A DNA stretch of 64,000 bases from Bryopsis sp. KO-2023 (Eukaryota; Chlorophyta; Ulvophyceae; Bryopsidales; Bryopsidaceae), in the NCBI GenBank assembly GCA_030272585.1, contig BSYQ01000002.1, forward strand, positions 3,658,001 through 3,722,000, given 5' to 3'. Shown here in pieces: positions 12,471 to 64,000 of the stretch. The stretch's first letter is position 1, and every line of letters starts with the position of its first letter. Both the position numbers and the translations under genes were made by a program. The notes below the pieces were generated by a model. It was not told the DNA's origin. It did no database searches and was given only the letters and a program-made list of their open reading frames with translations.

Positions 12471-14445
12471 CTATTCATCATCAATCACTTCATCAGGAGC
12501 CCACTCCACCATTGTTTCTTCATACCCAGCCTCCCATATCTTATCTTCAACACAAATAGACCCATGCACATGAACGAGCTTGTTTGCTCTCGAGGGAGTA
12601 AGGCGGTTTCTCAACTTGCTATGAAGCCAAGAATGATCTTTCCAGTTTCTTTCGGCTGCCCCAACACTCGAAACTTGCGATAAGACCTTGATAGCCAAAT
12701 CTCGGAGCTTTGGCACTCCCACACCATACAATGACCACCACTTATACGCCAACATCGTCTTGGAATTTGCAACTGTCGATGGCCTCCCAAAAACACCCTC
12801 TCGAGATTGATACTTTGCAAGCTCTTGTTCAATATGCCCCGACTCCTCCGATTCATACCACCCGTCCAACACAAGAAAGAAATCATTCATCACCTCAGCA
12901 TTTGATGCTTGGTCGCATTCAACATACTCCGGGTCAAGAACAAATCCAATCGAATGAAGCGGATTGTGCCCCATCTCCCAACGCTTCATGAACAGGTGAT
13001 GTATCTCCAACGGGTCCACATGTGCAGGGGCCCCAAACTTCAATATCTTCTCCGCGATATTGTTCATTCCTGCCCAAACTTTTCCAACTGTTGGAGTATC
13101 TCCATCAACCAAACGAAGAAAACTGATTGTATCACCCATCAAATTCGTGTACATCTCCAAAACCTCCCAAAAGTCTTGATCCAACACTGATGCAACCGCC
13201 GTTTTGTTCCTTTCTTGTTTCTTTGCTGTCTTGAGAAATTCATCAAATTCATCCGAAACCACCACTTGCTTGATCTGATTCTTTAATTCAAAAAGTCTTT
13301 TCATCATCAAGTAATGTGAAGCAAATCTGGTCTCAACGGGAAATAAAAGAGATTTCTCTGTTTTCTCCCTCAACAAAGCCAAGGGCCGCTCATGGTGCAA
13401 AAAAAGTTTCACCACGTCTTTTGCACTCTGAACAGCATCCCGGCACCACGACAATTTAGCAACGTCTTCAAGAAAAAGATCGAGGCAATGCGAAAGACAA
13501 GCACCCACAATAATTTTAGGATATTCTGCTTGCAAAAGTTCCCGGGCCAATCGGCAATTGCTTGCACTATCCGTAAGCACCAACACCACCTGATTTCCAC
13601 TCTCTTCAAGAAGCTCCACCTTCTCAGCTAAGACTTCTTTCACAAACTCAGCAGTTTTTGTCTTTCCGCTTGTGTCGAGCGAACCAAGGAAAAGGGGACC
13701 CGATGGTGTAACAGCCAACGTGTTGATCAACGGCCGTTTTTGAACGTTTTTCCACCCATCACTCACCAAGGTCACACCACATCCCTTCTTCTTGTTCTGC
13801 TCCAACATGTCCTTTTGGGTGTCTTCTGATTCCTTGTAAGCCTTGTCCAAAAGCTGATTTCGAAGAGCATCAAAAGATGGCAAAGTGCCAACGCTCCCCA
13901 CCTCCTTCAACTTTTCACACATAGCACGAAAGTGCTTATTGCGTATCAGATTGAAGCTCAACCCATTTGCATAAAAACAACGAGAAACTGCCCGGTGAAG
14001 CTCATCTTGGGATGCCTTCTTGAAAGATTCCACAATTCCTGGTTGCCTTCGCTTTTGACGACGAAGTTCAGCCTCCTCATGACCAGCCATGGCTTCAAGT
14101 GCCCTTTTTTCCTTCCCTTTTTGCCTCCTTTCTTTTACCTTCTCTTCGATTTCTATCATTTCAGCTTTGACAACTGAAATATCTTCTGCGGTGCAACGTG
14201 CAACTCCACACCCGTGACCACCTGAAAATTCAAAAATCGATAAATAATATACAACTCCAACTTCACAACAGAGAAAACAATTCTGTTACTTTTCCAAACT
14301 TACCAATAAAGTGCAGTCTGATACGGCCAGAACCTGCCACCATCACTTGGCCACACTTGTTGCATTTTACTCTGGGATCCGATTTCAGCTCTTCGACGAC
14401 TGTGACGTACTTGAACTCAGGTCCACGCTCCCCTTTTTTACCCAT
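12471..14445 (-). CDS. hAT transposase (BED zinc finger plus DUF659 and C-terminal dimerisation region)
   Basis: Exon 1 (14445-14304) and exon 2 (14221-12471) join across a GTAAGT...TTTTCAG intron with frame preserved, giving 630 residues and ending in TAG. The splice completes a BED-type finger: CNKCGQ, then RLHFIG, then GHGCGVARC, with the intron inside the finger. A Lys/Glu-rich helix and the DUF659-type RNase-H-like core follow: TLVSDGWKNVQ holds the first catalytic Asp and LVLTDSASNC the second. The C-terminal block SVGAAERNWKDHSWLHSKLR, followed by NRL and LVHVHG, is the conserved hAT dimerisation and catalytic-Glu region. It would cut and paste its own element in the nucleus by binding the terminal and subterminal repeats. 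I see no frameshift or internal stop, so it may be active. Confidence 0.92.
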
Positions 14446-25894: not shown

Positions 25895-28454
25895 AACCCC
25901 CCCCCCGAATACAGTACCCCCCCCGAATATAGTACCCCCCCCAAATATAGTACCCCCCGCCGCCCCTGGAAGCAAACGCGGAATAGTGTACCCCCCGAAA
26001 AGTGCACCCCCCCTTGCCTACCACCCAAAACTCGAAATAGTGTACCCCTCAGGTCGCTCTCTAGTCGGACGAACGGTTACTTTTGGGACGACGTTCGAAT
26101 TTCTAGGCGCCGCCTTCCTCCTCCAGCATCACTCATATTCTGGTTCCACTACAGCCATTCACTGTCGCCACAAACACCGCACCACCAATAGTTGCACATA
26201 TCCATTTCCATGGTTAAACTCATGACCATTGTAAAAGCGACCATGATGACCTTTATGTAAGTCCTTGCGTCGCACACTCCTTGCTTCAAATTCCACCACT
26301 TCGTGTCAGTGTTGCGCTTGTCTGTGGCTTCCTCTCTCCTGTCTCGTCACCTCGTCTGTGGAGCGCTTTCTTGTGTCTCGTCACCTCGTTTGATTAATCA
26401 CAAATGTCGTCCTCGAACGAGGGCTTCTCCGAAGATCAAAGCGATGGGGTGGAGTGGTGGAGCCACGAGCAAGACGAGGTCGATGACAGCAGGGTGGAAG
26501 ACGAGGTGGACTGGCTCCATCAGTCCGACTGGCAGAGCCAGGAGGAAGGCGAAGACGATGGTACAGACCAGGTGGAGGCGGACTGGGAGAGCCAGGAGGA
26601 AGCCGAAGGGGATGATGGGACAGGTCAGGTGGAGGTGGACTGGCTGCACCAGTCCAATTGGGACAGCCAGGGGGAAGGGGATGATGGGACAGGTCAGGTG
26701 GAGGTGGACTGGCTGCACCAGTCCAATTGGGACAGCCAGGAGGAAGTTGATATGGGGTGGTGTAGTCAAGAGGACAATGAGGAAACCGCGGCAAGTGAGG
26801 GTCAGGGTGCTCCAAGCCAAGATGAGGGGATAGATTTTCCCGCCATTTCAAAGAAAAGTAGGAGATCAATTCCTATTGTCAACAAGCTTGCCATAGTGAA
26901 AGAGGTGAAAAGAGGGATGGGAATTAAGGCAGCGGCAAGGAGGCATGGCTTGCAGCCTGTCCAAGTAAGGAGGTACCTCAAAGAGGAAGAGAAACTCTTG
27001 GAATTAAAAAATGTTTGCAGAAAAAGAAGGCGTGTGTCCGGTGGGGGCAGAAAACCAGTGCATATGAAAGTGGAAGAGGAGCTGGTGAAAGAACTTCGTG
27101 AGTGTTTGAGGAAAAAAAAAAAGGTCACGAAGGTGACTATTTTTAATCTTGCAAAGAAAGTTGCAAAAACTATTGGTGATGATTTTGAGGTTACAGAAAA
27201 ATGGTTGGATGGCTTTCGACGACGTAACAATTTTGAGAAGCATAGCGTCAAGAGATACCTCAGCGTCAGCGTGACGGAAGCTTCTTCGAAAATTCGGAAG
27301 TTTCATAAATATGTACGGAAAGTGCATAGGGAAGGGCTTTTCCCTCTCTTGGCGAAAAACGTGGGAAATATGGATGAATGCCCACTTTCTTTCGATTCTT
27401 CGGGACACTTTTCTTTCAATGAAAAGTGTACGCCAAATGAAGTGGTCGGGTCAACCGTCGACACAAAACGATTTTGCACCGTGATACCGACGGTGTTCCC
27501 TCGGGAGGAGCAGCCTGTGAAAACCTTGATCATCTTCAAGGGCTTGGGGAAAAAAATCTCCGCCCATGAAAGAGCAAAATACGACAAAAGAGTTGTCGTA
27601 TGTTTTCAGAAATGCGGTGTGATGGATGAAAACCTTTTCGTCAATCAGTATGTGCCTCTTTGGAGGAAAGTACGGGGTAGTCGTGAAGAACGACAACTCC
27701 TAATCCTTGACTCGGCTCGAGCTCATACTACCGAACACGCAAAGCAAGCCATGAGGAACAATAGCATTTTGCATGCTACTATTCCTGGTGGTTGTACTTT
27801 GCATGTTCAGTACCTTGACTTGAATTTTTTCGGCCGGTTCAAAAAAGAGTATTCTTGCATTAGTGAGGAGTTTTTGTTCGAGAGACGTGGGTCGAAAATA
27901 TCGGTTGCAGAAAAAAGGGTGAAAGTCACGGAATGGGTTGCTGATGCTGTGGAAAGAGCGTTAGCGGGTCAAAATATTCTGGAATCTTTCAAAAAACTAG
28001 GATATATTTGGAATGACACTTGGGGTGATGGATCCAATCAAGTTTCCTTGCGATCATTGCCCAATTACAAGTATTCTCCGGATGTAGATGATTTGGAAAT
28101 TGAGGAGGAAGAAGATCAGCCACGTCAAGCTCCCTCTAGGGGACCCTCCAAAGGTCTTAAGCAAAGATCAATCGCAGACTTTTTCAAAAGGCAGTAAGAC
28201 TGGGTTCTTTTTTGTAACAATTTTTTCATGGATTGATATGAAGCAAGATCTTCCCTTGAGTATAATAGGTTTTATGCAATGTTAAAAATCTTCTTACTCA
28301 TTAGCCCCCTTCCTGCCTCCCGAATACAATACCCCTGTAGGATCCAACCCCCTCTTTAAAAATAGAACACCCCCCCAAATAGTGTACCCCCTTAAATTTT
28401 TTTGCCAAAGTTATAATTATTGTACCCCGGGGTACTGTATTCGGGGGGGGGGTT
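25895..28454 (+). mobile_element. Pogo-type (Tc1/mariner superfamily) DNA transposon, apparently complete
   Basis: A 2,560-bp element with perfect 26-bp terminal inverted repeats at 25895-25920 and 28429-28454. The repeats begin AA, ten C, GAATACAG. They are flanked by the TA target duplication at 25893-25894 and 28455-28456. The left subterminal region has further CCCC-GAATATAGTA and AAATATAGTA copies (25920-25960), likely extra transposase sites. It encodes one intact transposase. Two deletion derivatives sit in the same window. Confidence 0.94.
26404..28197 (+). CDS. Pogo/Tigger-type transposase with CENP-B-like DNA-binding region, DDD core and C-terminal PIP-box
   Basis: A single-exon frame of 597 residues. 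Residues 1-145 are acidic and hold Trp/Asp/Gln-rich tandem units (two near-identical 22-residue copies, about 70-113, plus diverged ones). Residues about 158-193 form a first helix-turn-helix (NKLAIVKEVKRGMGIKAAAR), and about 222-285 a CENP-B-type second one (EKWLDGFRRRNNF). The catalytic triad reads D324 (GNMDECPLSF), D436 (LLILDSARAH) and D472 (VQYLDLNFFGRF), the DDxD layout of pogo. The C-terminus has a clustered acidic stretch and ends KQRSIADFFKRQ, a canonical PCNA-interacting QxxIxxFF at 587-594. Pogo-group transposases with PCNA-binding motifs are known, so transposition may be coupled to replication or repair sites. No damage is seen; it is likely functional. Confidence 0.93.
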   Translation: MSSSNEGFSEDQSDGVEWWSHEQDEVDDSRVEDEVDWLHQSDWQSQEEGEDDGTDQVEADWESQEEAEGDDGTGQVEVDWLHQSNWDSQGEGDDGTGQVEVDWLHQSNWDSQEEVDMGWCSQEDNEETAASEGQGAPSQDEGIDFPAISKKSRRSIPIVNKLAIVKEVKRGMGIKAAARRHGLQPVQVRRYLKEEEKLLELKNVCRKRRRVSGGGRKPVHMKVEEELVKELRECLRKKKKVTKVTIFNLAKKVAKTIGDDFEVTEKWLDGFRRRNNFEKHSVKRYLSVSVTEASSKIRKFHKYVRKVHREGLFPLLAKNVGNMDECPLSFDSSGHFSFNEKCTPNEVVGSTVDTKRFCTVIPTVFPREEQPVKTLIIFKGLGKKISAHERAKYDKRVVVCFQKCGVMDENLFVNQYVPLWRKVRGSREERQLLILDSARAHTTEHAKQAMRNNSILHATIPGGCTLHVQYLDLNFFGRFKKEYSCISEEFLFERRGSKISVAEKRVKVTEWVADAVERALAGQNILESFKKLGYIWNDTWGDGSNQVSLRSLPNYKYSPDVDDLEIEEEEDQPRQAPSRGPSKGLKQRSIADFFKRQ

Positions 28455-56692: not shown

Positions 56693-57176
56693 GGAGAGAA
56701 GAGGTACGTTCACCAAAAAATGATCTCGTTGCAAACATCCCTCTAATTGTTCCTCAATGTGTCCACCCCGGAACAAGTCACACTTAACAAGGGCGTTCTC
56801 TTCCCACCCATCTTGATAGACGACTCGTTCGTGCTCATTTTTGTTGACCCTACAATCGATGATGCCACTATTTAGAGGGCGCTCCACAAGAGACCTCTAA
56901 TTACGATTAACTCTCGTGTACAGATGTTTCGGATATATGCACCATTGCAGATCACAGATCCCGTGCCGTTGTTGTCAATATCGCTACAAGTTTAGCGATG
57001 AAAGCTCTCCCCATCGGCTAGTTTCCTGTCGGCTTTGTCATGTGCCTGACCCGACGTGATTGAAAGAATAGATTGAAGTGTGACATGTGGTATCGCACGG
57101 GGCATATGGTAGGAGAATGTTCCTTAAAAGAGTGTTCGCGGCTGAACACAAACATGCTTAAGATAGGGTGGTAGGC

Positions 57177-57586
57177 AGACATGGGCTGAGACCCCTGTGC
57201 ACAGGACAGGACAGAACAGACTGTCTGTTCTGTGCACAGGGTCGGACCTGTGCTGCACAGGTGCACAGACCTGTACAGCACAGCACAGATAGGGTCTGTG
57301 CAAAGTCTGTGCAGGTCTGTGCAAAGTCTGTGCAGTTTCTGTGCAGACTCTGTGCACAGTCTGTGCAGATTCTGTGCAGATTCTGTGCAGTTCTGTGCTG
57401 TGCTGTGCAGTCTGTGCACCTGTGCAGCACAGGTCCGACCTGTGCACAGAACAGACAGTCTGTTCTGTTCTAGCCTGTGGAATTTCGAAAAACAGGACAG
57501 GACAGCACAGGGTGCACAGAACCCGCACAGAACCCTGTCCTGTGCATCGCACAGGACAGGGGTCTGTCCTGTGCAGCCCATGACTG
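57177..57586. mobile_element. hAT-type MITE, family A, copy 2 (opposite orientation)
   Basis: A 410-bp copy in reverse orientation to that at 51295-51660, with the same CAGWCATGGGCTG ends and an exact 8-bp target duplication GTGGTAGG (57169-57176 and 57587-57594). It differs from copy 1 mainly in the number of GTCTGTGCA-type interior units and in an extra block near its right end. Confidence 0.95.
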
Positions 57587-58170
57587 GTGGTAGGGTTGGG
57601 TTTATGTGAAGAAAGGGGGGTACTTGATCACGTAAGAACTGGAAATCTTGCAATCATGAAGAGTAGTTTCAAGGTGATTGAGATAACGAAAATTGTTCGA
57701 ATTTTCTCCTTCGCGCTGCTATCAACAACTTGCGAGATTTATCGCTTTAACAAAAAGAAACAACCGTCCGAATCTCAATCTTGGGGTATAATTCTCGATC
57801 AGGATGGAGAACGAGCAATTTAGGATCAACTTGTTAATATTTTGTTTTCAAAACGCGCACTTTTATGTTCCAGCATTTTAATGATGATTAAAGAATAAAG
57901 TATTTTTTGAGAGAGGCGAGGATCAACTAAATGGAAGGGATGGAATACAATGATCAATTGGATGGAAAAGATACAGTTTGATGAGGTTGTTATGAGTGTT
58001 GGAAAGTCTCATCCTCTGAGTATAGGAGAGAATTGTTGAATGCATTCATCATTGAGCGTTGTAACAGTCACAAGGGGAAAACACTTCGACACACGAAACA
58101 AAACGAAACCTTACACGAACACCAACAACAAGACAACCGCCGCCGACTCCTTAAACCCCAAGCAAGCCTA

Positions 58171-58240
58171 ATCCGCGGCCCTGACGTAGTGCCTAGGACT
58201 CCAGCCGCGGATGTCCCTGGTTCAAATCCCACTAACTACT
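58171..58240 (+). other. tRNA-like sequence (A/B-box-like)
   Basis: CCTGGTTCAAATCCCAC carries a B-box (GGTTCAAATCC, 58219-58229). An A-box-like CCCTGACGTAGTGCCTAGG lies about 35 bases upstream. The T-stem is only partly paired, so it is not a clear tRNA gene. Seen antisense to the chromovirus. Confidence 0.3.
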
Positions 58241-58440
58241 GCCCCATTCTACACCTCCTGTACCCCTCCCTCGACTCCACTCTAACCTCACACTCACGTC
58301 ACACTAGTCACCCCGCGGGTCACATCGTGAGTCAATTCAATCCCCTCCCATTACTCCCGAATCTCCCGAGAGCGACACCTATTACCTAATCCGGTATATA
58401 GGCGCCCTCTCCCCCAAGTTAAAATAAGAAGCGAACTCAG

Positions 58441-58515
58441 GACACCCGGCTCAGAGTAGATTACATCTATTCTGGCCCAGGTGACCTGAGTTCGAATCTC
58501 AGCCACTACCACCAC
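58441..58515 (+). other. tRNA-like sequence with a perfect T-arm
   Basis: CTGAG-TTCGAAT-CTCAG (58487-58503) is a perfect 5-bp T-stem with a canonical loop, followed by CCACTACCACCA. GGCTCAGAGTAGATTAC upstream resembles an A box. No matching acceptor 5' strand (GTAGTGG) is found, so it is a tRNA-derived repeat or pseudo-tRNA. On the retroelement strand it reads TGGTGGTAGTGGC, which looks like a primer-binding site. Confidence 0.35.
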
Positions 58516-58783
58516 TAATCCCACACCTAAAGAACTGCTACAAACTCCCCCTGACCTGAAGTAACTGCCCTAGGGCTGCAGGTCACTAACAAAGCAGTTC
58601 AAAACAACAAACCTTGAAAGCAAGAAAAACAAAAACAACAACTGGCCCTAGAGGAGGCCCAACTCCCAGCCACAACACAAAATCCCCTGGTGTTCCCTCA
58701 GCCCCTCTTACCTAGTAGCTCGAAGCGAAACCAGCCCTCATCTGAATCTGCAAAATCCTTGACTAACACTTCCCAGTTCTCCT

Positions 58784-61700
58784 CTAAGTCCACCCCCAGA
58801 CCTGCTTCTCTAAATCTGTGGGCACCAACTGGTGCTGCTGGAAATACTCTGCTGCCACCTCCCCACAGTTCTCTAAATTCTTGACAGGCTCCCAACTGTC
58901 ATGGGCCCTGTCATATCCTAACCATCTGATCAGAAATTCTCTTTTAGCCCTCCCTCTGCCTCTAGAAACATTTCTGTGAGAGAGAAATTCCTGAACCTGG
59001 AATTCTTCCTCCCCTTCCACCAAATCAGGTGGAGGAGGAACCTCTTCTCTCTCACCAAACTGATCATCCACAAAATACCTTCTGAGCTTTGAAATATGGA
59101 ATATTGGATGGATTTTCCAGTGAAGAGGTAAATCAATTTTGTAAGCAACCTGACCCACAGTTTCTAAGACTGGAAATGGCCCTATAAATCTGGGCATCAG
59201 TTTCCTAACCCCTCCACCAGCTAGCTCTAGATCCTTAGTGCTCAACAGCACTTGATCCCCAACTGCAAATGAATCCACTCTTCTATTCTGATCAGCATTT
59301 GTTTTCTGTCTCACCTGGGCTCTTTTGATGTGGCATTTGGCATCTTCCAAATCCACCTTGAGATTCCTTAACAGCTCTTCAGCCCCCACCACTGGGGACT
59401 GGATTTGCTTCCTTCCTAAAAGTGCAACTGGCACCAGAGGTTCTTCCCCTGTATTCAAAAAGAAAGGACTATAACCAGTAGAGGACTGCTTCCCCTGGTT
59501 ATAGGCAAATTCTGCAGCAACTAATTTTAAGTCCCACTCCTTCTGCCTATGATCCACATAGGCCCTTAAACTCTCCTCTAACACCCTATTGAGCCTCTCT
59601 GTTTGCCCATCAGTTTGTGGGTGCCTGGAACTGGACATATGTAATTCAGTTCCAGCCAGGCTCATCAAAGATTTCCACAGGGCAGAAATAAATCTCCCAT
59701 CCCTGTCTGACACTAGATTTTGGGGCATCCCATGATACCTCCAGACCTGACTAAAGAAAAGTTCTGCAATGCCCTGAGCCCCTATAGTTCCTTGAGTAGC
59801 GCAGAAATGAGCCATCTTGCTCATTCTGTCCACAAACACTACTATAGCATCATTTCCCCTAGCTGTCCTGGGCAGGCCTGTAATTAGATCTAAACTGACA
59901 CTACTCCACCTCCTCTCTGGAATAGGAAGAGGCTGGAGATCCCCTGCTACCTGCTGAGTAGAACTTTTTACCCTCTGGCAAATGGGACAAGTTCTACAGT
60001 ACTGCCCCACATCCTGACTGATGCCTTTCCACCAAAAATACTGACTGACTGTGCTAAGGGTTCTTTCTTTGCCCTTATGACTCCCTAGAGGATTGTCATG
60101 GCATTCTTTTAACACTGTCTGCCTCAAAACCTTTGGCAGATCAATCCTGTTTTCAGCAGTCTGTAAAACTCCATCACACACTTTATAAACTGCTTGTGTC
60201 TGGGTGTCAGTGACTAACCTGTCCAGTATAGCCTTGCACTTTTCATCCTCCTGTTGATGTTTGATCATTGCCTCAGCACCCCACTGAGACACAGGCTGAA
60301 GAGTAGAAGACTCTAAGCTGTTGATCTGTGATTTCCCTTGTCCTGTATTCCCCTGAATACCTTCTCTTTCTGTCTTGACATCCCCTGATGTCATCAATCC
60401 TGTTTTCCCTCCAGTCTGATTCCCAGAACCCAACACCAACCTGGAGCCCAATGGTTTATAGAGGGTATCCCCAAAATTCAGCTCCTCATTTGGGTCATCA
60501 CCCCAAGCCCCAAAACCTTGGTATTTCTGAACTGCAGCCTGCTGGTCCCCATCCAGCTGGCTAGAAAGAGGTTCCTTTGATTCTGTAGAACAGCCTGATG
60601 CCTGTCCCACACCTCCCCCTCCACTGCCTTGAGAATCAGGAGAGGCATGTGGACATCTGGACAGTGCATCAGCTACAACATTGTCCTTATCAGGCACATG
60701 GACTGTTGTGAATCTATATGGAGCTAAGAATTCTACCCACCTGGCCTGCCTTCTACTGAGATGCTGCTGACTATCTAACCAGACTAAAGACTGATTATCA
60801 GTTCTGAGAATAAATTCCCTCCCCTCTAAATAGGCCCTCCACTTCCTAAGACAGTGGACTATTGCTAGCAGTTCAATCTCATGAACTGGGTACCTAGTTT
60901 CTGCATCAGAAAGTTTGTGGCTTTCAAAAGCCACAGGATGCAACCCATCTGGATGCTCCTGCATCAGTACTCCCCCTACCCCAGTAAGACTTCCATCTGT
61001 TGCTACTACCCAAGGCAAACCTTCCTGTGGATGTGCTAAAACTGGAGCAGAAATAAGAGCCTGTTTTAGAGCAGCAAAACTCTTCTGTTCTGCCTCCCCC
61101 CAAATCCAATCCTGCTGAGCTCTAGTAAGGTTAGTTAAGGCTGCTGCCTTCCCACTGAACTGTGGAACAAACCTTCTGTAAAAAGAACAAAGTCCCAGGA
61201 AGGACCTAATGTCATGTACATTCCTGGGTACAGGCCAATCCCTGATTGCTGTTTGCTTGTCAGCCATGGGCTGAACTCCTGCTGGGGAGATCCAATTCCC
61301 CAGAAAATCTACTTCTTTTACCCCTACTGCTGACTTCACTAATTTTGCATACAACCTGTATTTTCTCAGGGCTGCCAATACTAACCTCATGTGCTCTGCA
61401 TGCTGCTGTGGGGTCTCTGAATAAATCAGAATATCATCTAAAAACACCTGCACAAACTTATCTATATAAGGGGCCAGCACCTCATTCATCATGTGCATAA
61501 AATGGCCAGGTGCCCCACTTAATCCCATGGGCATCACTAAGAATTCAAACTGCCCATATTTAGTCCTAAATGATGTTTTTTCTACATCCTCTGGAGCTAC
61601 CCTTAGCTGCCAGAACCCAGCCCTTAAGTCTACCTTACTGAAAAATCTAGCAGAGGACATCCTGTCCAGCATTTCATCCATCCTAGGGATGGGAAACTGA

Positions 61701-63421
61701 GTAACCTTGGTGGCCTTATTAAGGGCCCTAAAATCAACACAAAATCTAAGTGCCCCCCCAGGTTTTGGGACAAAAAGAACAGGTGACCCAAAAGGACTAT
61801 GACTGGGTCTAATCATGTTTTTCTCTAATAAATAGTCTAACTGCTGCCTAAGAGCATCTAATTCTTTTGGGCTCTGCTTATATAAAGGTCCAAAAATGGG
61901 TCTACTACCCTCCTTCAAAGGTATCTTCATATCAAAGTCCCTATGGGGTGGCAGGGTGCTAGGTAAATCAGCTGGAAATACATCCTTGTATTCCAGCAGC
62001 ACTTCCCTCAAATCTGCCAGCTCACTATCCAGGCCATCCACCATTTCCTGCAACTTAGAATCAACACCATCCTCAGTGGCATCTACAGGAGTGGATTCCC
62101 CTGGATTCCTAGCTGGACTGGTATGAGAAACACCTGAAACTGTAGCCAGATCTGCCTGATTTCCTAATCCCAAACTTTGCTCTTTTCCCCCTGAATTTAC
62201 CTGCTCTTTTCCATCAGTTCTGACCTTCCTAACCAAGACTAGAAAAGCCTGAGACCTCTGCACAGGATCAGCTAAACAATCCTTAGCCTGATTTGCTGTC
62301 AGCAGATTTAATTCCACCCCAGCAGACTCAGCTGCTAGAGCAGAAGACTGAGCTACAAAACCTTGCAGCCTCAGCACTGGTCTCCCTTCTCTTTTCACAG
62401 AAACTACATGTGACCTCCAGTCAATCTGGGGGTTATAATCCACAAGCCAGGGCTTCCCAAAAATCACCCTGTGCTTGAGGTCTGGCATCATCCAGAATTT
62501 TCTTTTTATCACCCAGTCCCCCAGCCTAATCCTAACCAAAGCTTGTTTCTTTAAGGTCAATTCTGACCCATCTGCTAATTCAACTGCAATAGGTGAGACT
62601 GAGAAAATCTTGGCTGAATTCTGGTGAGCTAATTCAGCATCTATGAAATCTGCTGTAGCCCCACTGTCTATAAGACATTGAACTGATGTCTGGGGCAGCT
62701 TACCTCTGATGTACAGGAGTGTGTTCCTGATACTCAAACTTCCTACTGACCCCAACTTCAGTGTTCCCCCTATTTCCTGATCTTCTACACCCTTCAGGTT
62801 TTCTTTCTGTTCTGATTTTTCTGTACTTGATTCTTTTTCCCCTGTAGTCTGTAATTTTTCTTGTGGATCCCCTATCCTGTCTGAAAAATACACCCTCCCA
62901 GGAACCTGAACAGAAGCTTCAGACTGACTTCCAGTCTGGACAGTACCTAGCTGCTGGGGCTGTGTTACTGAAGGTGTAGAACATGAGTTTGGATGATCCA
63001 GATCAGGTCTGATTTTCACCCACTGCCCAGTGCTGTCCCTTGTAGCTACTAAGGGTCTGGTCACAGCACCCTGACTCAAAGATCCTCCCCCAAACTTCTC
63101 TAAAACTTCCTCTAGCTTATTCAAAACTTCCCCGGTACAGTAACGACTCTTTTGACTAAGGTCCCCCGAAACTGTCTCTGCCTTGGTCGTCTCTGACTGC
63201 TTCGACAGCTCTGACGGCTTGGTCTGCTCTGACGGCTTGGACTGCTTGGACTGCTCTGACGTCTCTGCCTGTACTCGCTCGTTCTGCTCTGCATCCGGGT
63301 TAGTATCTTCGTCACTAGGCCCCCGAACCAGGCCTAGTTCTTCCCGTTTCCCTGCTGCTTTCCTTTTCCGTCCTTCTGTTTCTTCCTGCACTGTGCAGCC
63401 CAGTGTCCCACCTTGCCACAA
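58784..63421 (-). CDS. pol: Chromovirus Pol: protease, reverse transcriptase, RNase H, integrase, chromodomain
   Basis: The frame is open from 63421; after -1 frameshifting, Pol is entered near 63345. Numbering from 63421 gives 1,545 residues. A Ser/Lys/Gln-rich linker spans 45-90. The protease has CLIDSGATADFI (DSGA 252-255). The reverse transcriptase runs about 500-710 with VFLDDILIYS (catalytic Asp 662-663). RNase H runs about 795-925 with ATDGS, HEIELL, RTDNQS and ADALSR. The integrase has an HHCC finger (ECHDNPLGSH, YCRTCPICQR; about 1108-1148) and DDE residues D1178 (SLDLITG), D1239 (VSDRDGRF) and E1275 (GQTERLNR). The chromodomain lies at about 1474-1528 (REFLIRWLGY, DSWEPVKNLE). It copies element RNA and integrates the DNA; the chromodomain may target marked chromatin. 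Only one CpG occurs in 58728-63132. Confidence 0.95.
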   Translation of the reverse strand: MWQGGTLGCTVQEETEGRKRKAAGKREELGLVRGPSDEDTNPDAEQNERVQAETSEQSKQSKPSEQTKPSELSKQSETTKAETVSGDLSQKSRYCTGEVLNKLEEVLEKFGGGSLSQGAVTRPLVATRDSTGQWVKIRPDLDHPNSCSTPSVTQPQQLGTVQTGSQSEASVQVPGRVYFSDRIGDPQEKLQTTGEKESSTEKSEQKENLKGVEDQEIGGTLKLGSVGSLSIRNTLLYIRGKLPQTSVQCLIDSGATADFIDAELAHQNSAKIFSVSPIAVELADGSELTLKKQALVRIRLGDWVIKRKFWMMPDLKHRVIFGKPWLVDYNPQIDWRSHVVSVKREGRPVLRLQGFVAQSSALAAESAGVELNLLTANQAKDCLADPVQRSQAFLVLVRKVRTDGKEQVNSGGKEQSLGLGNQADLATVSGVSHTSPARNPGESTPVDATEDGVDSKLQEMVDGLDSELADLREVLLEYKDVFPADLPSTLPPHRDFDMKIPLKEGSRPIFGPLYKQSPKELDALRQQLDYLLEKNMIRPSHSPFGSPVLFVPKPGGALRFCVDFRALNKATKVTQFPIPRMDEMLDRMSSARFFSKVDLRAGFWQLRVAPEDVEKTSFRTKYGQFEFLVMPMGLSGAPGHFMHMMNEVLAPYIDKFVQVFLDDILIYSETPQQHAEHMRLVLAALRKYRLYAKLVKSAVGVKEVDFLGNWISPAGVQPMADKQTAIRDWPVPRNVHDIRSFLGLCSFYRRFVPQFSGKAAALTNLTRAQQDWIWGEAEQKSFAALKQALISAPVLAHPQEGLPWVVATDGSLTGVGGVLMQEHPDGLHPVAFESHKLSDAETRYPVHEIELLAIVHCLRKWRAYLEGREFILRTDNQSLVWLDSQQHLSRRQARWVEFLAPYRFTTVHVPDKDNVVADALSRCPHASPDSQGSGGGGVGQASGCSTESKEPLSSQLDGDQQAAVQKYQGFGAWGDDPNEELNFGDTLYKPLGSRLVLGSGNQTGGKTGLMTSGDVKTEREGIQGNTGQGKSQINSLESSTLQPVSQWGAEAMIKHQQEDEKCKAILDRLVTDTQTQAVYKVCDGVLQTAENRIDLPKVLRQTVLKECHDNPLGSHKGKERTLSTVSQYFWWKGISQDVGQYCRTCPICQRVKSSTQQVAGDLQPLPIPERRWSSVSLDLITGLPRTARGNDAIVVFVDRMSKMAHFCATQGTIGAQGIAELFFSQVWRYHGMPQNLVSDRDGRFISALWKSLMSLAGTELHMSSSRHPQTDGQTERLNRVLEESLRAYVDHRQKEWDLKLVAAEFAYNQGKQSSTGYSPFFLNTGEEPLVPVALLGRKQIQSPVVGAEELLRNLKVDLEDAKCHIKRAQVRQKTNADQNRRVDSFAVGDQVLLSTKDLELAGGGVRKLMPRFIGPFPVLETVGQVAYKIDLPLHWKIHPIFHISKLRRYFVDDQFGEREEVPPPPDLVEGEEEFQVQEFLSHRNVSRGRGRAKREFLIRWLGYDRAHDSWEPVKNLENCGEVAAEYFQQHQLVPTDLEKQVWGWT
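63314..63352 (-). promoter_or_regulatory. Programmed -1 ribosomal frameshift signal at the gag-pol junction
   Basis: The slippery heptamer G GGA AAC (63352-63346) is in the correct gag phase. It is followed by a 7-base spacer (63345-63339) and a perfect 8-bp stem ACTAGGCC / GGCCTAGT (63338-63331 and 63321-63314) with a 9-base loop. The gag TAG (63336-63334) lies inside the stem. Slipping back one base leads straight into the pol frame (KREELGLVRG). Confidence 0.85.
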
Positions 63422-64000
63422 TAATTGCAGACATCTTTTTTCCTTTTTTCGTGTTTTTTAGATGCTGCTGCGCCGAGGTCCATTGGGTCTCCCTGCTGCT
63501 GCTGTTGGTTCGGACGATTGTACTCGTTACCTCCTCCACTTCTTCCTGACGCCCGGTCAGCCTGCAACGCGTAGTGCATTGCGTCCTCCAGGTTACGGGG
63601 ATCCTGCAGAAAGACGTGGCTACGTATTTTCCCGGTGAGGCTGTTCACGAATATATGAGTCTGGTCGTCTGAACCCATCGTCGGAACTCTGAGCAGGAGC
63701 TTCTGAAACTGAGCCATGTGGTCTCGTAAACTGCCCTTCTTATGGGAAAGACGATAAATCGCATCCCTGGCACTTTGCGCCTTGTCGAATGGGTCAAAAT
63801 AGGAAACCAGGTCGGCAGTGAAAGTGTTCCAGCAGGTTGCCAAGGTCGGGTTGGATCGCTTTTGCAGGTTAAACCACTCTAACGCACTCTGGCGAAGGAG
63901 CGTTGAGGCGAACAGCACCCTTTTGTCGTCGGTACATCCTGCTGCCTCAAGGTAAGTCGTCAATGCTTCCACCCAGTCCGCCGCACTTTCGCCTGTTTTT
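63334..64000 (-). CDS. gag: Chromovirus Gag, 5' part cut by the window edge
   Basis: The frame is open to the edge of the window. A retrotransposon-gag (capsid-like) domain is visible: ALEWFNLQK, WNTFTADLVSYF, DAIYRLSHKKGSLRDHMAQF, LRVPTMGSDDQTHIFVNSLT and DAMHYALQAD. A Gln-rich linker then leads to a zinc knuckle CNYCGKVGHWAAQC (CX2CX4HX4C), followed by a Lys-rich tail ending GNGKN-TAG. It would form the virus-like particle and bind element RNA through the knuckle. It overlaps the pol frame by 88 bases and is joined to it by the frameshift signal. CpGs are frequent here, unlike in pol. Confidence 0.92.
   Translation of the reverse strand, partial: KTGESAADWVEALTTYLEAAGCTDDKRVLFASTLLRQSALEWFNLQKRSNPTLATCWNTFTADLVSYFDPFDKAQSARDAIYRLSHKKGSLRDHMAQFQKLLLRVPTMGSDDQTHIFVNSLTGKIRSHVFLQDPRNLEDAMHYALQADRASGRSGGGNEYNRPNQQQQQGDPMDLGAAASKKHEKRKKDVCNYCGKVGHWAAQCRKKQKDGKGKQQGNGKN

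Follow-up and report, generated by a model that had tools for sequence, protein, structure and literature searches.

A lineage-wide CpG void in the pol region of chromovirus retrotransposons of the green alga Bryopsis sp. KO-2023

Results

An intact chromovirus with a nearly CpG-free pol body

The analysed window is a 64,000-nucleotide stretch of the genome of Bryopsis sp. KO-2023, a siphonous green alga, spanning positions 3,658,001 to 3,722,000 of contig BSYQ01000002.1. Its minus strand carries a Ty3/chromovirus long terminal repeat (LTR) retrotransposon of ~7.43 kb, the 5' LTR of which lies outside the window. Between positions 58727 and 63132 this element contains a single CpG dinucleotide (59800), against 222.2 expected from base composition, confirming the claim of an earlier sequence-only reading of the window. 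This region has a GC content of 46% and a GpC observed-to-expected ratio (O/E) of 0.92. CpGs are found at 58721 and 58726, next at 59800 alone, and then again from 63133; the longest CpG gap in the rest of the window spans 400 bases.

Drawing synonymous codons with the pooled usage of eight loci from other Ty3 families generated a mean of 265 CpGs (minimum 235 in 300 draws), and permuting the element's own codons between positions of the same amino acid generated a mean of 59.7 (minimum 42 in 300 draws). Compared with both expectations, the single observed CpG indicates that codon choice and codon order both avoid CpG. The 3' untranslated region (UTR), which comprises the 240 bp separating the pol stop from the 3' LTR (58544-58783), harbors 2 CpGs versus 12.5 expected, indicating that the 3' edge of the void is the LTR; the sequence-only reading had described this non-coding region as containing CpGs, which hardly holds. 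On the gag side, CpG O/E values are 0.84 (63133-64000) and 0.99 (the next 1503-bp stretch, upstream from 63501).

The assignment to Ty3/gypsy is based on the identical LTRs surrounding gag and pol, the target-site duplication and the protease, reverse transcriptase (RT), RNase H and integrase order of pol domains, with the integrase H2C2 finger scoring well above cut-off (Table 1). The element was assigned to the chromoviruses by its domain order, its LTRs and a chromodomain C-terminal to the integrase (PF00385, amino acids 1474-1528, E-value 6.4e-9), which is also present in many of the listed relatives. As the sequence-only reading had proposed, pol is intact, with an unbroken frame of 1545 amino acids and the expected domains; its coordinates place it in a -1 frame relation to gag. 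The element is young and probably active. Four further copies are at least 99.7% alike to it and form clade A with it; homology stops inside gag in one of them (L001), and LTR sequence passes directly into pol in another (L003).

Table 1. Features of the Bryopsis chromovirus, in window positions unless a contig or locus is named
Feature	Position	Strand	Remarks
3' LTR, 483 bp	58060..58542	(-)	Ends set by TG...CA; 100% identical to 5' LTR
5' LTR, outside the window	G000:C2:3723005-3723487		100% identical to 3' LTR
Target-site duplication AGCGT, 5 bp	58055..58059	(+)	Second copy at L039 1988-1992
pol open reading frame, intact, 1545 aa	58784..63421	(-)	TTG first start; open frame from 63457
Aspartic protease domain, aa 244-324	62450..62692	(-)	PF13650
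Reverse transcriptase, aa 551-709	61295..61771	(-)	PF00078
RNase H, aa 774-902	60716..61102	(-)	PF17919/PF17917
Integrase, H2C2 zinc finger and core, aa 1096-1268	59618..60136	(-)	PF17921; PF00665 at E-value 6.8e-4, below cut-off
SH3_Tf2-1 domain and chromodomain, aa 1388-1528	58838..59260	(-)	PF24626, PF00385
gag 3' part (capsid, CCHC zinc knuckle), CpG-normal	63334..64000	(-)	PF19259, PF03732, PF00098; runs past window
CpG-null zone, pol minus first 96 codons plus 3' UTR to 3' LTR	58544..63132	(-)	3 CpGs: 58721, 58726, 59800

Several other features of the window were recorded. An inverted repeat resembling a stem-loop, read by eye, lies directly upstream of the polypurine tract and 3' LTR (58545-58586), and repeats read by eye at the same position on the minus strand of clades B (L047 ~2015-2060) and C (L081 ~200-250), described below, show arms that change in a matching way from clade to clade (TGACCT..AGGTCA; TGACCTTAG..CTAAGGTCA; TGACCCTT..AAGGGTCA). 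On the strand antisense to the element, the LTR presents words similar to a tRNA T-arm (GGTTCAAATCCC and GAGTTCGAATCTC, at 58219-58230 and 58488-58500), a similar word is found in the clade B LTR, and ARAGORN (bacterial code) predicted no tRNA in the window. Near the element, a repetitive CTGTGCA/CAG-rich stretch occupies 57160-57580, and the 1-kb bin from 57001 has a CpG O/E of 0.52 and a TG/CA O/E of ~1.5. Two intact transposase open reading frames (ORFs) encode a pogo/Tc5-like DDE protein of 597 amino acids (26404-28197, plus strand) and a hAT/DUF659 protein of 562 amino acids (12471-14159, minus strand).

The CpG void is a trait of three related clades

In a search of the genome with the RT protein, 150 of 1695 candidates were scored, yielding at least 55 relatives with identity of 75% or more, with the next candidates at 54% or less. 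We examined the DNA of 40 of these 55: five copies of clade A, 26 of B type (L006-L030 and L060), eight partial copies of B type (L064-L071) and one of clade C (L061). Over the RT piece, clades A and B are 72-74% alike and clade B copies share 86-100% identity; the similarity of L061 to its nearest copy is 76-78%.

All 40 examined relatives have at most 1.5 CpGs per kb in the pol zone, and no family copy with normal pol CpG was found among them. The pooled pol zone of L001-L028, a set that takes in copies ending within the stretch (L003, L013, L014, L017, L018 and L021), contains 27 CpGs in 99,037 bp, and that of L064-L071 contains 11 in 17,981 bp; L029 and L030 have none, L060 has one, and L061 has three in 2401. 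The 3' UTR is likewise void in clade B (0 CpGs versus 13.4 expected in L050; 0 versus 14.6 in L047, where the counted stretch enters the LTR by ~30 bases) and in clade C (0 versus 10.8). The sequence-only reading had suggested checking codon use, and arginine CGN codons are indeed nearly absent from pol (0 of 90 in clade A, 0 of 85 in B and 2 of 44 in C), as opposed to 331 of 468 in eight loci of other families.

In contrast, CpG O/E ranges from 0.92 to 1.12 in all ten loci from other Ty3 families (51-54% RT identity) and from 0.65 to 0.98 in eight host stretches, so that the host sequences examined do not share the CpG-null pattern. The void is hence neither host-wide nor the general fate of retrotransposons in this genome, and constitutes a lineage trait of clades A, B and C. 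Among 120 listed of 3672 protein matches from outside the genome, none exceeds 55% identity over RT-RNase H. A pattern search of viral contigs with an RT alignment gave 28 matches, none related to the element, and a phage collection gave no match.

The void starts at the gag/pol border

The abrupt return of CpGs at 63133, inside the reading frame, holds for clade A as the sequence-only reading had described it, with lone CpGs found past the edge in the other two clades. The clade B void begins shortly after gag and extends to the 3' LTR; two conserved CpGs lie beyond the edge (L007 467 and 488). Clades A and B use two frames, whereas gag and pol are fused in clade C into a single frame of 1988 amino acids (L061/L080/L081, G000:C5:4696800-4704900). 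The clade C void nonetheless starts after gag (the last dense CpG is at L080 2807) and extends as far as the LTR; it contains five lone CpGs (L080 3393; L061 1061, 2117 and 2203; L081 1687).

A genome search with the clade A gag retrieved the gags of clade B first (mostly 48-53% identity) and that of clade C next (35%), with remaining lineages at 33% or less except for a few short fragments at 44-55%. This proximity indicates that gag and pol were co-inherited, and that a CpG-normal gag next to a CpG-null pol is a state common to the three clades. The edge lies ~2355, 2110 and 1570 nucleotides from the 5' LTR start in clades A, B and C, respectively; it tracks the gag/pol border, leading us to reject distance from the promoter as the factor setting it. 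We also rejected shielding by gag-translating ribosomes, since the single gag-pol ORF of clade C keeps its edge after gag.

The word CGTCAGA occurs at the CpG edge of all three clades, with three copies in clade A (63210-63261) and one each in B (L012 ~250) and C (L080 ~2807). It was not found elsewhere in the 5' stretches scanned (without the LTR in clade A), and its occurrence may be due to chance. Regarding the possibility that the pol zone acts as an intron of the gag mRNA, two gaps between exon matches of a host DNMT1-like gene contain 3 CpGs in 72 bases and 2 in 179; these gaps are not CpG-free, in a sample too small to close the question.

New CpGs arise in single copies but scarcely enter lineages

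Differences between family copies were counted pairwise; given that pairs share history and are not independent, these counts are descriptive. Among pairs 85-93% alike, T/C differences affect 0.34% of sites before G versus 9.4% before other bases, and A/G differences affect none of 54,972 sites after C versus 7.7% after other bases. The gap persists at third positions, where A/G differences after C amount to 0 in 18,022 pair-sites versus 18.5%, and T/C differences before G to 0.7% versus 21%. It is smaller in pairs more than 99% alike, with 0.10% versus 0.17% for T/C before G and 0.06% versus 0.17% for A/G after C.

We then compared private and shared variants, counting each variant once, skipping columns with fewer than 12 letters and treating L061 of clade C separately. 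Among private variants, those creating a CpG number 4 of 30 where the copy has a sibling at 99% identity or more and 6 of 57 in partial copies, whereas among shared variants they number only 6 of 1837 (Fisher p values against the shared class of 1e-5 and 5e-7, respectively). A CpG-normal Ty3 family used as control shows no such gap (16 of 143 private versus 16 of 138 shared). Neutral enumeration, for which the transition share came from private variants belonging mostly to clade C, yields ~15.5% CpG-creating variants, from which the close-sibling and partial groups are indistinguishable (p 1 and 0.36). This contrast indicates that new CpGs arise and persist in single copies, yet scarcely enter lineages. 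No CpG hypermutability was detected in the control family (ratios 0.85-0.87) or in the LTR-gag region of two clade B copies (5 of 467 versus 19 of 1292). Double changes between TG and CA, counted without L029, L030 and L060, show no excess, although amino-acid constraints keep this test from being decisive by itself.

Codon usage was examined for the footprint of CpG loss. With NCG codons forbidden, deamination predicts an NCA share of 0.65-0.72 and avoidance one of 0.39-0.53; the observed shares are 0.39 in clade A, 0.46-0.49 in four clade B copies and 0.51 in clade C. For the third bases of NCN codons, proportional redistribution outperforms CpG-to-CpA decay by log-likelihood (lnL) differences of 45 in A, 35 in B (L007) and 9.6 in C, and glycine, valine and leucine codons before G favor avoidance over decay in A and B. 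CpA O/E is 1.5-1.6 in all three clades, TpG O/E is 1.5 in B and C and not raised in A, and TpA O/E is 0.38-0.40 in B and C versus 0.69 in A and 0.62 in other families. Some weak contrary signs aside, CpG loss is not concentrated on deamination products, whereas methylation decay resembling repeat-induced point mutation would predict such a concentration.

The host encodes candidate methylation genes

The host assembly comprises 91 Mb in 28 contigs and yields 107 chlorophyll-binding-protein matches. It has matches to PF00145 (DNMT) at two loci, which, going by motifs in their translations, we take to be DNMT1-like and DNMT2-like, and 13 matches to the SRA domain (PF02182) at approximately seven places. 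The DNMT loci present CpG O/E values of 0.65-0.67 and TG/CA values of 1.2-1.3. In its accessible text, a survey across eukaryote diversity reports gene-body 5-methylcytosine (5mC) in the chlorophytes it covered, as well as 5mC without substantial effect on base composition, unlike in animals and plants (PMC12695648). The void described here cautions that methylation may be poorly reflected by CpG O/E.

Discussion

Taken together, these results favor, with a probability of roughly 0.55, the interpretation that in clades A, B and C the stretch between the gag/pol junction and the 3' LTR is held near CpG-free by purifying selection on replicating copies. Under this interpretation, new CpGs would appear in inserted copies at a roughly neutral rate and CpG-bearing copies would seldom found descendant lineages. 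Selection would act on nucleotides rather than codons in the part of the transcribed body that follows gag, given that the 3' UTR is also in the void. Support comes from the lineage-wide void, its zone specificity, the contrast between private and shared variants, the avoidance type of codon replacement and the lack of CpG hypermutability in the main controls. The simplest selective agent would be a CpG-directed host system. If CpG is indeed avoided, we tentatively suggest, at a little under even odds, that CpGs in the transcribed pol body may provide a handle for CpG-directed silencing based on 5mC and its SRA readers. CpG-poor copies would then escape silencing, and LTR-gag would represent an unmethylated, promoter-side region in which CpGs are harmless. 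DNA methylation is favored as the agent because the genes are present and gene-body 5mC occurs in surveyed chlorophytes.

Several observations weigh against selection of this kind. Other Ty3 families thrive in the same genome with normal CpG, and CpGs are retained in both gag and LTR, facts that a pure methylation-escape model must account for. CpG-creating variants make up only 1 of 39 private variants in copies without a close sibling and 3 of 275 in clade C; with clade C set aside, the private total is 11 of 126 (6 of 102 in a smaller set), below the neutral 15.5%. In clade B pairs more than 99% alike, CpG differences are already few (3 of 4200 versus 37 of 15,079; 0 of 4286 versus 47 of 21,836). 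The glycine, valine and leucine test tilts to decay in clade C (lnL -3.3), and the fit of clade B NCN codons to avoidance is imperfect (chi-squared 11-33, compared to 83-130 for decay). Over 260 bp of gag compared among 17 clade B copies, CpG transitions are 1.4-4.6 times as frequent as others for pairs below 99% identity, although 27 variants at few sites constitute weak evidence. Lastly, six CpG sites are common to two to eight sequences, so that lineages with one CpG do spread, and having just one is not lethal. That one CpG per copy is tolerated and that CpG-normal families succeed both point to an effect that is graded or family-specific.

Among alternative explanations, restriction at the RNA level is unlikely overall, yet an RNA sensor is still a serious rival to DNA methylation as the agent. 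A ZAP-like CpG-binding factor hitting the pol part of the genomic RNA would select for CpG-free RNA and predicts the same population-genetic pattern; coding sequence and 3' UTR are equally void, and added CpGs reduce HIV-1 replication, according to the accessible text of PMC5679385. However, the same RNA keeps CpGs in its gag and U3 parts, ribosome shielding fails to explain the edge in the single ORF of clade C, and TpA is lowered in clades B and C but not in A.

CpG scarcity is usually ascribed to methylation-driven mutation, which the sequence-only reading had put forward and which we consider improbable here. In this scenario, pol would be methylated in the germ line and CpG would decay to TpG and CpA by deamination, with protein selection keeping the frame. 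The DNMT and SRA matches, the composition of the DNMT loci, the raised CpA in all three clades and TpG in B and C, the clade C codon test and the 260-bp gag stretch would agree with it. Methylation decay, however, rarely leaves so few CpGs in active sequence, and private CpG creation is indistinguishable from neutral in close-sibling and partial copies. CpG is not hypermutable in the control family or in the LTR-gag of two clade B copies, NCA codons do not pile up, TG/CA double changes are not in excess, and TpG is flat in clade A. The related point that the void does not reflect simple post-insertion decay, with the 5' part spared and the protein kept, is borne out.

A still less probable alternative is hygiene at the DNA level, whereby a CpG-dense pol would draw CXXC-type activators or open chromatin and cause unwanted internal or antisense transcription, confining CpG to LTR-gag. 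The CpG-normal 5' side, the CpG-null body and the edge at the gag/pol junction in three clades fit this idea, but such selection would be expected to act on density, not down to near zero, and other families do without it. Editing in the replication cycle, with a CpG-directed deaminase stripping CpGs from RNA or cDNA at each transposition, is very improbable; it would also allow private genomic CpGs while lineages lack them, but it expects an NCA excess (minus strand) or an excess of T before G (plus strand), neither of which is seen in A or B, and gag is spared. That the element joins the CpG-null pol of a CpG-poor foreign host to a CpG-rich gag, as the sequence-only reading had also envisaged, is scarcely credible despite the sharp boundary in clade A and the limited identity of outside proteins, since the gags nearest to that of clade A are those of clades B and C, in which pol is null as well, the clade B copies examined are null across 86-100% identity in this genome, rendering transfer unnecessary, and all three clades have their edge at one and the same module border.

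The element shares with known chromoviruses its domain order through the chromodomain, its LTRs, a 5-bp target-site duplication and a gag CCHC knuckle. Among the matches listed, the best-scoring named proteins (Lolium, Haematococcus, Closterium and Nannochloris) show 43-50% identity over RT-RNase H, and unnamed metagenome proteins up to 55%. It differs from known chromoviruses in the near-total CpG loss of its pol, which the ten other Ty3 loci of this genome do not show. Retrotransposons of dinoflagellates and charophytes have reportedly captured DNA methyltransferases, in a conflict between element and host over methylation; in contrast, no methyltransferase domain was found among the Pfam profile matches of the pol protein studied here. 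We know of no CpG sensor in algae, and no search aimed at one was made. As in CpG-suppressed HIV-1 (PMC5679385) and other ZAP targets, CpG appears to be avoided here at the nucleotide level without loss of the protein, but in a DNA-integrated algal retrotransposon, to near zero and only in pol and the 3' UTR. Plant Del chromoviruses also show uneven CpG along the element, discussed as a possible escape from host control, but with CpG islands within LTRs, and no CpG-free pol is reported in the accessible text of PMC4029996. Whereas the chromovirus class, CpG suppression in HIV-1 and uneven CpG islands in Del LTRs are known, we found no report, in a largely open-access literature and for Bryopsis included, of a CpG-free retrotransposon pol held by selection.

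The availability of family copies and of a CpG-normal control family in the same genome allows a comparison of private and shared variants that separates mutation from selection, and it favors selection. In this family, one can hence ask in a natural setting by what route individual CpGs within a transcribed body reduce the fitness of a mobile element, and whether restriction directed at CpG also occurs in organisms other than vertebrates. Somewhat short of an even chance, green algae may have a CpG-directed restriction of the retrotransposon pol body, at the DNA or RNA level, strong enough to have held one chromovirus lineage near zero CpG since its three clades split. If true, this would represent an arms race over CpG outside vertebrates that can be read directly from sequence.

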